Shown: piece by piece, positions 5,993 through 52,314 of the stretch
Numbering within the stretch: the stretch's first letter is position 1
Layout: each line of letters begins with the position of its first letter
Source: Oscillospiraceae bacterium
GTDB lineage: Bacteria; Bacillota; Clostridia; Oscillospirales; Acutalibacteraceae
Assembly: GCA_015066245.1 (NCBI GenBank)
Contig: SVOS01000001.1
Location: forward strand, 62,001 to 126,000
Length of the DNA stretch: 64,000 bases
Direction: 5' to 3'
The notes under the pieces: model-generated
What the model was told of the DNA's origin: nothing
Seen by the model: only the letters and a program-made list of their open reading frames with translations
Databases searched by the model: none
Position numbers and translations under genes: made by a program

Positions 5993-6017
5993 CGGGCGAT
6001 TCCGGAATTGCCCCTAC
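5993..6017. repeat. REP-like palindromic repeat (unit A)
   Basis: CGGGCGATTCCGGAATTGCCCCTAC; same family as 48288, 61945 and 62057. Confidence 0.75.
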
Positions 6018-46537: not shown

Positions 46538-46695
46538 ATTTATCCACTTCTTTCAAAATATTCGCAAAACACCTGGATTTTGCTAAAATGATATTATATT
46601 ATACCAAAATCTGAGGATAAGCACAAGTATTTTTGCAGGATTTGTAAGATAAATTTGCAAAATACAGGGTGTAAAACCTTTCCTATCAAAAAAAG

Positions 46696-46724
46696 TTGAC
46701 ATAGATTGCAAGTTGGTTTATAAT
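46696..46724 (+). promoter_or_regulatory. Perfect-consensus sigma-A promoter of the metY leader
   Basis: TTGACA (46696-46701) - 17 nt - TATAAT (46719-46724). Confidence 0.93.
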
Positions 46725-46753
46725 GAACTCAAGTTTTGCAGGAGGACACCAAA

Positions 46754-46813
46754 ATGAAAAGTTTATATGTAAACTACAATATGATGATGTGCACCTGTGC
46801 CTTCAAAAACTGA
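46754..46813 (+). CDS. Putative 19-aa Met/Cys leader peptide MKSLYVNYNMMMCTCAFKN
   Basis: SD caggagga at 46740-46747, ATG at 46754, TGA at 46811; three consecutive Met codons, then Cys-Thr-Cys, directly before a terminator and metY. Confidence 0.85.
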   Translation: MKSLYVNYNMMMCTCAFKN

Positions 46814-46880
46814 TTGAGTCTTTTGATTTATTCTGATTTTTGAGGGCAGATACCCGTTTAAAGGGTTTCTGCCTTTTCTT
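46796..46880 (+). promoter_or_regulatory. Transcription attenuator: antiterminator 46796-46809/46837-46850 versus terminator 46845-46873 plus T-tract
   Basis: TGTGCCTTCAAAAA pairs with TTTTTGAGGGCAGA (one mismatch, one GU); terminator GGCAGA-T-ACCC-gtttaaa-GGGT-T-TCTGCC-TTTTCTT shares GGCAGA with the antiterminator. Confidence 0.85.
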
Positions 46881-46906
46881 ATTTAATCTTTAAGGAGGAA
46901 GATACG

Positions 46907-48190
46907 ATGAGTAATTTCAGTATCGATACCAAATGCGTTCAGGGCGGCTATACACCCTCAAACGGCGAACCTCGCCAGATTCCCATTGTGCAGAGCACTA
47001 CTTTCAAATATGCAACTTCAGAAGCAATGGGCAAGCTTTTTGATCTTGAGGCAGAGGGATATTTTTACACCCGACTTCAGAACCCCACCAATGACACAGT
47101 TGCTAAGAAAATCTGCGAGCTTGAGGGCGGTTCTGCCGCAATGCTTACTTCCTCAGGTCAGGCAGCAAGCTTTTTCAGCATTTTTAATATTGCAGGTGCA
47201 GGAGACCACGTTGTTGCTTCCTCTGCAATTTACGGTGGAACATATAACCTCTTTGCAGTTACAATGAAGCGTATGGGCATCGACTTTACCTTTGTTGCTC
47301 CCGACTGCTCTGAGGATGAGCTTAACGCAGCTTTTAAGCCTAACACAAAGGCACTTTTCGGTGAGACTATTGCAAACCCCGCTTTAGTTGTTATTGATAT
47401 CGAAAAGTTCGCAAAGGCCGCACACAGCCACGGTGTTCCCCTTATTATCGACAACACCTTTGCAACTCCCGTTAACTGCAGACCTATTGAATGGGGTGCA
47501 GATATTGTTATTCACTCCACCACAAAATATATGGACGGCCACGGTGTAAGCGTTGGCGGATGTATTGTTGACTCGGGCAAATTTGACTGGACAAAATATC
47601 CCGACAAGTTCCCCGGTCTTTGCACTCCTGATGAAAGCTACCACGGCGTAACATATACAGAGAGATTTGGTTTAGAGGGTGCTTATATCACAAAGGCAAC
47701 TGCTCAGCTTATGAGAGATTTCGGATGTATCCAGTCTCCTCAGCATGCTTTCTACATCAACATGGGCCTCGAGAGCCTTCACCTGAGAATGAAGCAGCAC
47801 TGTGCAAACGGTCTTGCTGTTGCAAAATACCTTCAGAACCACCCCAAGGTTGCTTGGGTGCGTTTCCCCCACCTTGAGGGCGATGCTTCCTTCGAGCTTG
47901 CTCAGAAATATATGCCCAATGGCGGTTGCGGTGTAGTATCCTTCGGCGTTAAGGGCGGAAGAGCTGCTGCAGAAACCTTTATGAAAAATCTTAAGATTGC
48001 CGCAATCGAAACCCACGTTGCAGATGCACGTACCTGCTGCCTGCATCCTGCCAGCGCTACCCACAGACAGATGAACGACGATGAGCTTACTGCTGCAGGT
48101 ATTTCTCCTGATTTAGTTCGTTTCTCCTGCGGTATCGAAGGTGCCGACGACCTTATCGCTGACATCGAAAACGCACTCGCTCAGGTTTAA
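46907..48190 (+). CDS. metY: O-acetylhomoserine aminocarboxypropyltransferase (sulfhydrylase)
   Basis: FSIDTKCVQGGYTPSNGEPRQIPIVQSTTFKY, PLIIDNTFATPVNCRPIEWGADIVIHSTTKYMDGHG. Confidence 0.95.
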   Translation: MSNFSIDTKCVQGGYTPSNGEPRQIPIVQSTTFKYATSEAMGKLFDLEAEGYFYTRLQNPTNDTVAKKICELEGGSAAMLTSSGQAASFFSIFNIAGAGDHVVASSAIYGGTYNLFAVTMKRMGIDFTFVAPDCSEDELNAAFKPNTKALFGETIANPALVVIDIEKFAKAAHSHGVPLIIDNTFATPVNCRPIEWGADIVIHSTTKYMDGHGVSVGGCIVDSGKFDWTKYPDKFPGLCTPDESYHGVTYTERFGLEGAYITKATAQLMRDFGCIQSPQHAFYINMGLESLHLRMKQHCANGLAVAKYLQNHPKVAWVRFPHLEGDASFELAQKYMPNGGCGVVSFGVKGGRAAAETFMKNLKIAAIETHVADARTCCLHPASATHRQMNDDELTAAGISPDLVRFSCGIEGADDLIADIENALAQV

Positions 48191-48287: not shown

Positions 48288-48365
48288 TAGGGGCGATTCG
48301 TGAATTGCCCGTTTAACGCTTAATATGTCAGCATCGTTTTCGGGAGGTTCACAAGCCTCCCCTAC
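48288..48365. repeat. Composite REP-like element (unit A + unit B)
   Basis: GTAGGGGCGATTCGTGAATTGCCCG - 29 nt - CGGGAGGTTCACAAGCCTCCCCTAC. Confidence 0.8.
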
Positions 48366-48397: not shown

Positions 48398-49324
48398 ATG
48401 CCAATCAAAATTCCCAACGAGCTTCCTGCTACAAAAACTTTATTTGAAGAAAATATTTTTGCCATAACCGAAACAAGGGCTTTGACTCAGGATATCCGTC
48501 CTCTGCAGATTGTTGTGCTTAACCTTATGCCCACAAAGGTAGAGACCGAAACTCAGCTTGCCCGTCTTTTGGGTAACACACCTCTTCAGGTGGATTTGGA
48601 GCTTATCCACACTGCTACCCACAAGTCAAAGAACGTGGACTCTGACCATCTCTTAAGCTTTTACAAGACTTTTGACGAGATAAAGCACCGCAAGTTTGAC
48701 GGTATGATTATCACAGGTGCCCCTGTTGAGCATCTTGAGTTTGAGGATGTTGAGTACTGGGATGAGCTTTGTGAAATTATGGAGTGGACCAAAACCAACG
48801 TTACCTCAACCTTTCACATCTGTTGGGGTGCTCAGGCAGGTCTTTACTACCATTACGGAATCAAAAAGTATCCTCTCCCCAAAAAGCTGTTTGGTATCTT
48901 TAAACACACTCTGGATTACAAGCGTTCAATGCTTTTTAGAGGCTCTGACGATGAGTTCTGGGTGCCTCAGTCACGCCACACTACTGTAAGACGCGAGGAC
49001 ATTGAGGCTGTAGAGGAGCTTAAAATCCTTTCTTCGTCAGAAGAAACAGGCGTGTACGCCATTGCTACCGCAAAGGGCAGACAGATTTTCATTACAGGTC
49101 ACTCCGAATATGACAGAGATACCCTCAAAAAAGAGTATTTAAGAGACAAAAACTTAGGCAAGCCCATTGACCTGCCTAAGAATTACTTCCCCGATGATGA
49201 CGACACAAAAGACCCCGTAATCAAATGGAGAAGCCACTCAAGTCTTCTTTACTCCAACTGGCTCAATTACTTTGTGTACCAGACAACCCCCTACAACATC
49301 AACGAAATTGATTCTATAAAATAA
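48398..49324 (+). CDS. metA: Homoserine O-acetyltransferase/O-succinyltransferase (MetA family)
   Basis: [69 protein letters not shown]. Confidence 0.96.
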
Positions 49325-50542: not shown

Positions 50543-52314
50543 TTATTCTGTCATATAGGCACTGTAAAGCTCGGTGTAGATGCCGTTTTTCTCCAAAAGC
50601 TCCTTGTGGCTGCCTTCTTCGGCAATTCCGTTTTTGGTGATAACAAAAATTCTGTCGGCATTCTTGATGGTGGTAAGTCTGTGAGCAACGGTGATGGTTG
50701 TTCTGCCCTTTGAAAGTACATCAAGGGATTTCTGCACCACAAGCTCCGACTCGTTATCAAGTGCAGAGGTTGCCTCGTCCAAGAGAAGCACAGGAGGATT
50801 CTTGAGGAAAACTCTGGCGATAGAAATTCTCTGCTTCTGACCGCCCGAAAGCTTTACTCCTCTCTCTCCAACATAAGTGTCATATCCCTGAGGCAGACTC
50901 ATAATAAAGTCGTGAGCACCTGCCATTTTTGCCGCTTCGAAAATTTCCTCGTCGGTGGCATCAAGCTTCCGTAGGCGATGTTGCTTTTTACCGAGCCCGA
51001 AAAAAGATAAACGTCCTGCTGGACAATGCCGATTTTGTCCCTCAGGCTCTTGAGGGTAACATCTTTGATGCTCTTGTTGTCAATGAGGATTTCGCCTTCG
51101 TCAACCTCGTAAAAACGGGGAATCAGCGAGCAGATTGTGGTTTTGCCACCGCCCGAAGGACCTACAAGGGCGACTTTTTCGCCGCTTTTTATCTTGAATG
51201 ACATATCAATAAGCACGTCTTCGTTTTCTTCGGAATATCTGAAGGTTACGTTCTTAAACTGGATTTCGCCTTTAATATCGCCTAAATCCACGGCATTTTC
51301 TTTATCAGTAATCAGAGGCTTTGTATCCAAAATCTCGTAAAATCTCTCGATACCTGTCATACCACGCTGAAACTGCTCGGCAAATTCTACGATTCTCCTT
51401 ACGGAAGTAAGCAAGGTGGACACAAAAAGCAGATAAGCCACAAAATCCGACGATGAAATAAAGCCCTTCATCATAAACAGGGTGCCTGCAACCACCACAA
51501 CGATATACATAAAGCCTTCGAAAAACCTTGTGGTAGCCTGATAAAGACCCATATACTTATAATTTTTCGCTTTAATCTTAAAAAATCTGCGGTTGCCCTC
51601 GTCAAATTTGCTCTGCTCAACATCTTCGTTGGCAAAGGACTTGACAACTCTTATGCCAAGAAGGCTATCCTCTACCTGAGAGTTAAGCTCGCCGATTTCA
51701 ACCCTTTGCTGACGAAAGCCCTTCTTGATTTTGCGGTTGAAAAGGGTTAGAGCAATAATCATAGGGGGAATCACAAGGAAAACCAGAAGTGTCAGAGGCA
51801 CATTGAAGGTGCAGAGAATCACAAATGCGGCTAAAATCTTGATTCCTGCAATAAAGAACTCCTCGGGGCAGTGATGGGCAAACTCTGTAACATCAAAAAG
51901 GTCTCCTGTAATACGGCTCATGAGGGTGCCGACTTTTGCGTTATCGTAGTAACCCATGTGAAGCTTCTGCAAATGGGAGAACAGGTCTTTTCGCATATCT
52001 GTCTCGATTTTAGTGCCCATAACGTGACCAACATTAGCCATATAAAAATATGCAAGGCCGTCAATAAGCCTCATGGCAAGATATGCCCCACCCACAGTAA
52101 CCACAAAGCCTACAGTAAGGCTCAGAGGGTCTGTAGAGAGCCTGCTTGTGATTTCTCGCACCACAAGAGGCAGCATTATCTCGCACAAAGTAGTAAGTGC
52201 CGCACACAACAGGTCCTTGACCATGGTTGTGCGGTATTTTTTGTAGTAAGGCAAAAACCGCCTTAAGGGGGATTTTCCCTCTTTTCTTTTTCCTTTCATT
52301 TTGTTCACCAGCAT
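50543..52314 (-). pseudogene. ABC transporter permease/ATP-binding protein, frameshifted near 50968-50972
   Basis: ORF 50899..52314 carries TM and Walker A; ORF 50543..50926 carries [32 protein letters not shown]. Adding one base at ~50970 restores [27 protein letters not shown]. Confidence 0.85.

Follow-up and report, generated by a model that had tools for sequence, protein, structure and literature searches.

Attenuation by leader peptides has been described for several amino acids. In the trp and his attenuators of E. coli, a leader ORF in which codons for the end product stand in tandem is combined with mutually exclusive antiterminator and terminator helices before a biosynthetic gene. 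In Firmicutes, methionine genes are usually controlled at the RNA level by S-box (SAM-I) and T-box leaders. Described systems related to the one presented here include the His leader peptide that precedes hisZ/hisS paralogues in bacilli (PMC2965389), a leucine-rich attenuator peptide known from Staphylococcus aureus (PMC5794164), Cys leaders in Actinobacteria (PMC1262725) and the uORFC-8-2 motif before cysS in Rhodobacterales, where tandem control codons in a uORF are followed by a terminator (PMC8632094). Concerning methionine, a conserved fold with a pseudoknot has been proposed for the metXZ RNA element of betaproteobacteria, with no leader ORF described (PMC4239095), and a Met-containing leader, MSTTSDRTPATEATTTPGARCMCRRMCAF, has been predicted before metNIQ in Streptomyces lividans (metL), where no typical Rho-independent terminator was found (PMC8079986). 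This prediction, with its unclear terminator, is the only described Met-containing leader that we found, and we found no description of a methionine leader attenuator with a full terminator/antiterminator; subscription literature was not covered, and an unseen report is possible.

Here we analyze the region preceding metY in a Clostridia genome, within a stretch of 64,000 nucleotides hereafter called the window (Table 1). The leader found there is very probably a ribosome-mediated transcription attenuator sensing methionyl-tRNA, an assignment that is not yet backed by any experiment. The elements required of an attenuator are present, i.e. a short translatable leader ORF with its ribosome binding site (translation being inferred), control codons in tandem that specify the pathway's product (a conserved MMM before metY), an intrinsic terminator between leader ORF and metY, and an antiterminator incompatible with the terminator, its 5' arm being predicted to be freed or masked by the ribosome. 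Promoter, Shine-Dalgarno (SD), uORF, terminator and an alternative helix had been located in an initial annotation of this DNA, and we reproduce them base for base. The same annotation took the helix, which overlaps the terminator 5' arm, for an antiterminator; its pairing, 13 of 14 positions with one G-U included, is confirmed and covariation supports it (see below). The whole terminator hairpin has a folding energy of -20.4 kcal/mol (RNAfold), and was overlooked by a simple terminator scan, probably because of mismatches within the stem. The leader layout is more than chance, as judged from its folding z of -4.95, the uORF kept across relatives and the excess of MMM before metY.

Table 1. 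Features of the metY leader and of the genes that follow it, in window coordinates.
Feature	Position	Strand	Basis
sigma-70-type promoter TTGACA-N17-TATAAT (-35 at 46696-46701, -10 at 46719-46724, spacer 17 nt)	46696..46724	+	12/12 consensus matches; seen in relatives' leaders too
Shine-Dalgarno AGGAGG of leader ORF	46740..46745	+	from sequence
Leader ORF MKSLYVNYNMMMCTCAFKN*, 19 codons	46754..46813	+	12 congeners retain start, frame and Met run; codons 2-9 with an excess of third-position differences
Control codons Met10-Met12 (ATGATGATG)	46781..46789	+	conservation, enrichment, modelled permissive boundary
Antiterminator 5' arm, within leader ORF (codons 15-19)	46796..46809	+	pairing, covariation, ribosome modelling
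Antiterminator 3' arm, overlapping terminator 5' arm	46837..46850	+	pairing, covariation
Intrinsic terminator hairpin GGCAGA...TCTGCC, followed by T-rich tract 46874-46884	46845..46873	+	folding, covariation
metY, O-acetylhomoserine sulfhydrylase, regulated gene	46907..48190	+	TIGR01326, 561.9 bits (cut-off 495.1)
metA, homoserine O-acetyltransferase (acetylating MetA)	48398..49324	+	NF047918, 499.1 bits (cut-off 460.5)

Downstream of metY lies metA, probably in the same transcription unit, although co-transcription is inferred. The gap between both genes carries a palindrome, GGGGCGATTCGTGAATTGCCC (48290-48310), probably a dispersed repeat, with related copies at 5993 and 62060. Further on, in 50543-52314 of the minus strand, the overlapping ORFs 50543-50926 and 50899-52314 resemble a single ABC transporter split by a frameshift.

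A DNA search retrieved close copies as well as partial matches, in which the peptides are altered and the layout is kept (e.g. MYTNFKTIYMMCRSAFRSITE and MYANYEKTHMMMCSSAFKSHR). Covariance model R1, run over 161 genomes of the genus, yields strong matches in 12 congeners, every one a Met leader, and the downstream gene is metY wherever it was read (not all were); the weak matches within the genus (E 1e-5 to 1e-2) contain no Met leader. The uORF is unchanged in close relatives and reappears in divergent ones, with three Met in 11 of the 12 congeners and two in the other (G020), which lost a whole codon. Codons 2-9 differ freely, with a coding-like excess of third-position differences in both groups of leaders (34 third, 22 second and 12 first in one, 12 third, no second and 6 first in the other). 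Absence of the uORF or of its Met codons from related genomes, which had been set beforehand as a refutation of the attenuator, is not what is seen, since many relatives carry both. Most other congeners have a more distant metY, and the Met leader is absent from all those sampled. Two congeners with a metY 87-88% identical, G066 and G078, keep the terminator and lack the Met uORF. Upstream of metY in these two genomes (L142 and L146) there is a promoter and a terminator-like hairpin. A short segment close to where the transcript is predicted to begin, ATGTTCT in L142, can base-pair with a portion of this hairpin and may represent a different control.

The frequency of Met runs was determined for SD-preceded uORFs in 266 distinct metY upstream regions, using fifty dinucleotide shuffles as control. 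MMM is observed in 15 uORFs against a mean of 0.06 in the shuffles (largest value 1), an enrichment of about 250-fold, the runner-up being RRR with 8 observed for 5.16 expected; the reverse strand of the same 266 regions gives no MMM uORF. Many of the 15 are related to each other, hence the independent number is smaller, and two bacterial families are represented. The second of these came from a scan of metY upstream regions at other loci, where one (L075) holds MKQNMLSSMMMPSAAFAAS, and the same genus and family provide MKMNMVSSMMMPCAVFGCF, MNMIHRAVMMMCDTACVNAL, MLKRTYNGFYMMMPITVFSRF, MSLIHHRAVMMMRSAVFGRTSDKRS, MKNSVYMCMMMFRTALSLR, MNALSMRAVMMMPNTVFGRFQNR and MLHFKIDMRMMRLSALSYVS.

Covariance model R2 was built from six leaders of the second family only, and its query contained no metY. 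When 401 genomes of this family were scanned, it yielded ten matches at E<0.001, the remaining hits being weak. Nine are full-length and located before metY, six of them training members and three new (MNMAYDFNMMMPCTVFGSLVC, MKTVYTHTTMMMRSTACV and MKNALYMCMMMRRTALNRM), and the tenth (G913) is partial and at another gene. R2 also recovers leaders of the window's own genus that were unseen in training (the window itself with 21.3 bits and E 9e-4, L011 with E 7e-7), and gives no match at the corresponding place in metY loci without a Met uORF. A class-wide pattern scan for SD-ATG-MMM in 392 genomes, in which the hits not retrieved were judged by eye only, found no such Met leader upstream of any other gene, since the retrieved in-frame hits correspond either to normal gene starts or to short frames lying within other genes. 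Overall, a Met leader precedes metY in at least 23 species. Leader-bearing genes are scattered over several places of the metY tree, with nine state changes counted (one an artefact of an unlabelled duplicate row), hence repeated gain, loss or transfer of the leader is likely, the three not being separable. Three further cases (L081, L113 and G461) show Met-rich uORFs and terminators before metY, but their modelled boundary is not at the Met run, and they are retained as possible only.

Concerning the two exclusive helices, the part of the ORF downstream of the Met run finds its best pairing with the terminator 5' arm from 0-5 nt past the last Met codon in almost all leaders, and this pairing overlaps the terminator arm by 7-20 nt. 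Covariation was evaluated on 13 divergent members, aligned by hand with a shared GGC fixing the register; slid alignments pair far less than the chosen one. In the antiterminator 93.8% of the cells are paired, 15 cells are changed on both sides, and the covariation score is 0.444 compared with 0.241 for shuffled alignments; in the terminator 97.4% are paired and the score is 0.438 compared with 0.224, with no shuffle out of 500 reaching the observed value in either case. These counts are not probabilities, since the shuffles leave relatedness in place. The shared arm covaries with both partners: the window terminator GGCAGA is matched by TCTGCC, GGCGGC in G358 by GCCGCC on both sides, and GGCGGT in G437 by ACCG, also on both sides. 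Within the genus most antiterminator positions are invariant and covariation is by itself uninformative; the signal arises from the comparison between lineages.

To model the effect of translation, a ribosome with an assumed footprint of -17 to +12 from the A-site codon start was placed at each codon, and the antiterminator probability was computed before the terminator 3' arm exists. For the window, the model gives 0.89 at Met10, 0.80 at Met11, 0.46 at Met12 and 0.00 with the ribosome anywhere from Cys13 to the stop. Each of the 20 MM-bearing leaders that were modelled shows this drop from permissive to non-permissive, inside the Met run or directly behind it. Without ribosome, these 20 leaders show antiterminator probabilities of 0.55-1.00, and no protector hairpin was found that makes termination the default without translation, as the trp type would demand; lacking a dominant one, the antiterminator is predicted as default on the ribosome-free leader. 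It should be noted that for the full-length RNA at equilibrium the terminator wins in most members even with the ribosome on Met, hence the switch must act kinetically, through the folding order during transcription. The uORF of G404 ends only beyond the antiterminator arm, so that a ribosome at its stop codon would leave this arm uncovered. What the sequence itself shows is the anatomy with its conservation, the covariation in both helices, and the boundary modelled at the Met run.

The alternative that survives best is a general translation-stress sensor, in which any delay or breakdown in translating the leader (through antibiotics, other amino acids or poor initiation) leads to read-through, with Met as one input among several. 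It is in line with a model that permits antitermination at nearly any codon through Met12, and also without ribosome, but it has no need of an invariant Met run at the boundary while codons 2-9 vary freely, nor does it lead one to expect confinement to metY; we consider it unlikely, albeit not negligible.

A cysteine signal, alone or jointly with Met as held by the initial annotation, would be favored by Cys13 and Cys15 in the window peptide and by the fact that metY enzymes of the same family also work in sulfur assimilation. However, Cys is missing in G010, G318, G358, G437, G404 and G402 (Cys-free peptides include MYATLKNTYMMMRRSAFKNT and MKQNMLSSMMMPSAAFAAS), whereas Met is always present, and the model predicts that a ribosome held up at either Cys13 or Cys15 blocks the antiterminator. 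The Cys codons being beyond the boundary and unconserved, the signal is read as Met and not Met/Cys, for which the modelled boundary is the strongest argument, and cysteine sensing becomes very improbable. Also against it, the cysE of the same genome is preceded by a T-box. This genome (G000) contains eight T-box matches, on contigs C33, C20, C18, C7, C25, C29, C12 and C22 (L131-L138), three of them above the Rfam cut-off and all before genes other than metY; by eye, the first ORFs after them are cysE, pheS, an isopropylmalate/homocitrate-synthase-like gene, trpB, alaS, an AMP-ligase, thrS and ilvA. The only S-box of the genome precedes metK, hence Cys and SAM appear to have sensors of their own. 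A search before metY found neither an S-box (RF00162) nor a T-box (RF00230). A T-box sequence does precede some other metY genes (L023 by Rfam, L084 by eye), thus metY control seems to be swapped between RNA systems in these Clostridia.

There is scarcely any support for nascent-chain arrest, where the peptide would stall the ribosome upon a ligand (SAM or Met) regardless of tRNA charging: an AF/VF at Met+5 is common to both families, but these shared residues are encoded within the antiterminator arm, and the residues preceding the Met run, which would occupy the exit tunnel, are patternless (e.g. MKSLYVNYN, MYATLKNTY, MLKRTYNGFY). Barely tenable is an RNA-only terminator, constitutive or metabolite-controlled, with an incidental uORF, since despite the two congeners with terminator and no uORF, SD, frame and Met run are all conserved, MMM is strongly enriched, and Rfam finds no credible family in the metY leader region even at a loose threshold.

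We return, then, to attenuation through methionyl-tRNA, a ribosome-mediated reading already put forward at the outset and supported by the comparative data, with the mechanism itself inferred. Transcription would start about 20 nt upstream of the leader ORF, with the ribosome trailing RNA polymerase. With plentiful Met-tRNA, the ribosome would pass the three Met codons, reach the stop and cover 46796-46809, allowing the terminator (46845-46873) to form and transcription to end ahead of metY. With scarce Met-tRNA, it would pause on Met10-12, its leading edge leaving 46796-46809 open to pair with 46837-46850, which would capture the terminator 5' arm and give read-through to metY and probably metA. 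If initiation fails, which Met shortage could cause via fMet-tRNA, the antiterminator would form as the predicted default, and stalling and failed initiation would thus both give read-through. Translation of the leader and stalling are inferred, as are the co-transcriptional timing and any response to methionine or tRNA charging.

Methionine is a special case, since every leader peptide begins with Met and starvation affects both initiation and elongation. A default-on layout, as predicted here, is a testable answer to this initiation problem: if true, the element escapes its own need for fMet-tRNA to start, and reports the whole Met-tRNA supply of the cell (elongator and initiation). Whether these leaders form a class of attenuators of their own in Clostridia, specific for methionine, default-on and so far undescribed, is, in our judgment, evenly balanced. 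They appear to be a little-known route for bacteria to sense methionine shortage, found in a gut Clostridia genome and a range of other species. In the genome of the window, sulfur amino acid metabolism would receive three RNA inputs, namely the SAM riboswitch of metK, the cysE T-box and the Met leader of metY.

Compared with the known systems, the present metY lacks the S-box or T-box usual for its phylum. It shares Firmicutes leader-peptide attenuation with the bacilli His leader (PMC2965389) and with the S. aureus leucine-rich peptide (PMC5794164), amino acid and genes being different. With uORFC-8-2 (PMC8632094) it has in common a tandem-codon uORF, a terminator and a sulfur amino acid, which in that motif is cysteine, in Alphaproteobacteria and before a synthetase gene. 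The metXZ element (PMC4239095) is a candidate for terminator/antiterminator control at the same pathway step, but is proposed to be a conserved RNA fold with a pseudoknot and has no described leader ORF. Like metL (PMC8079986), the metY leader encodes a Met-containing peptide, whereas metL belongs to a different phylum and a transporter operon, on a leaderless mRNA and with Met scattered instead of tandem. The trp/his logic invoked by the initial annotation holds only in part: the layout of tandem-codon ORF, exclusive helices and biosynthetic gene is alike, but the amino acid sensed is inferred to be methionine, and a leader free of ribosomes is predicted to adopt the antiterminator, with no dominant protector hairpin, whereas in trp such a hairpin makes termination the default. 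The metY leader is hence classed as ribosome-mediated attenuation by inferred mechanism, following a known logic with a new amino acid and a default-on layout.
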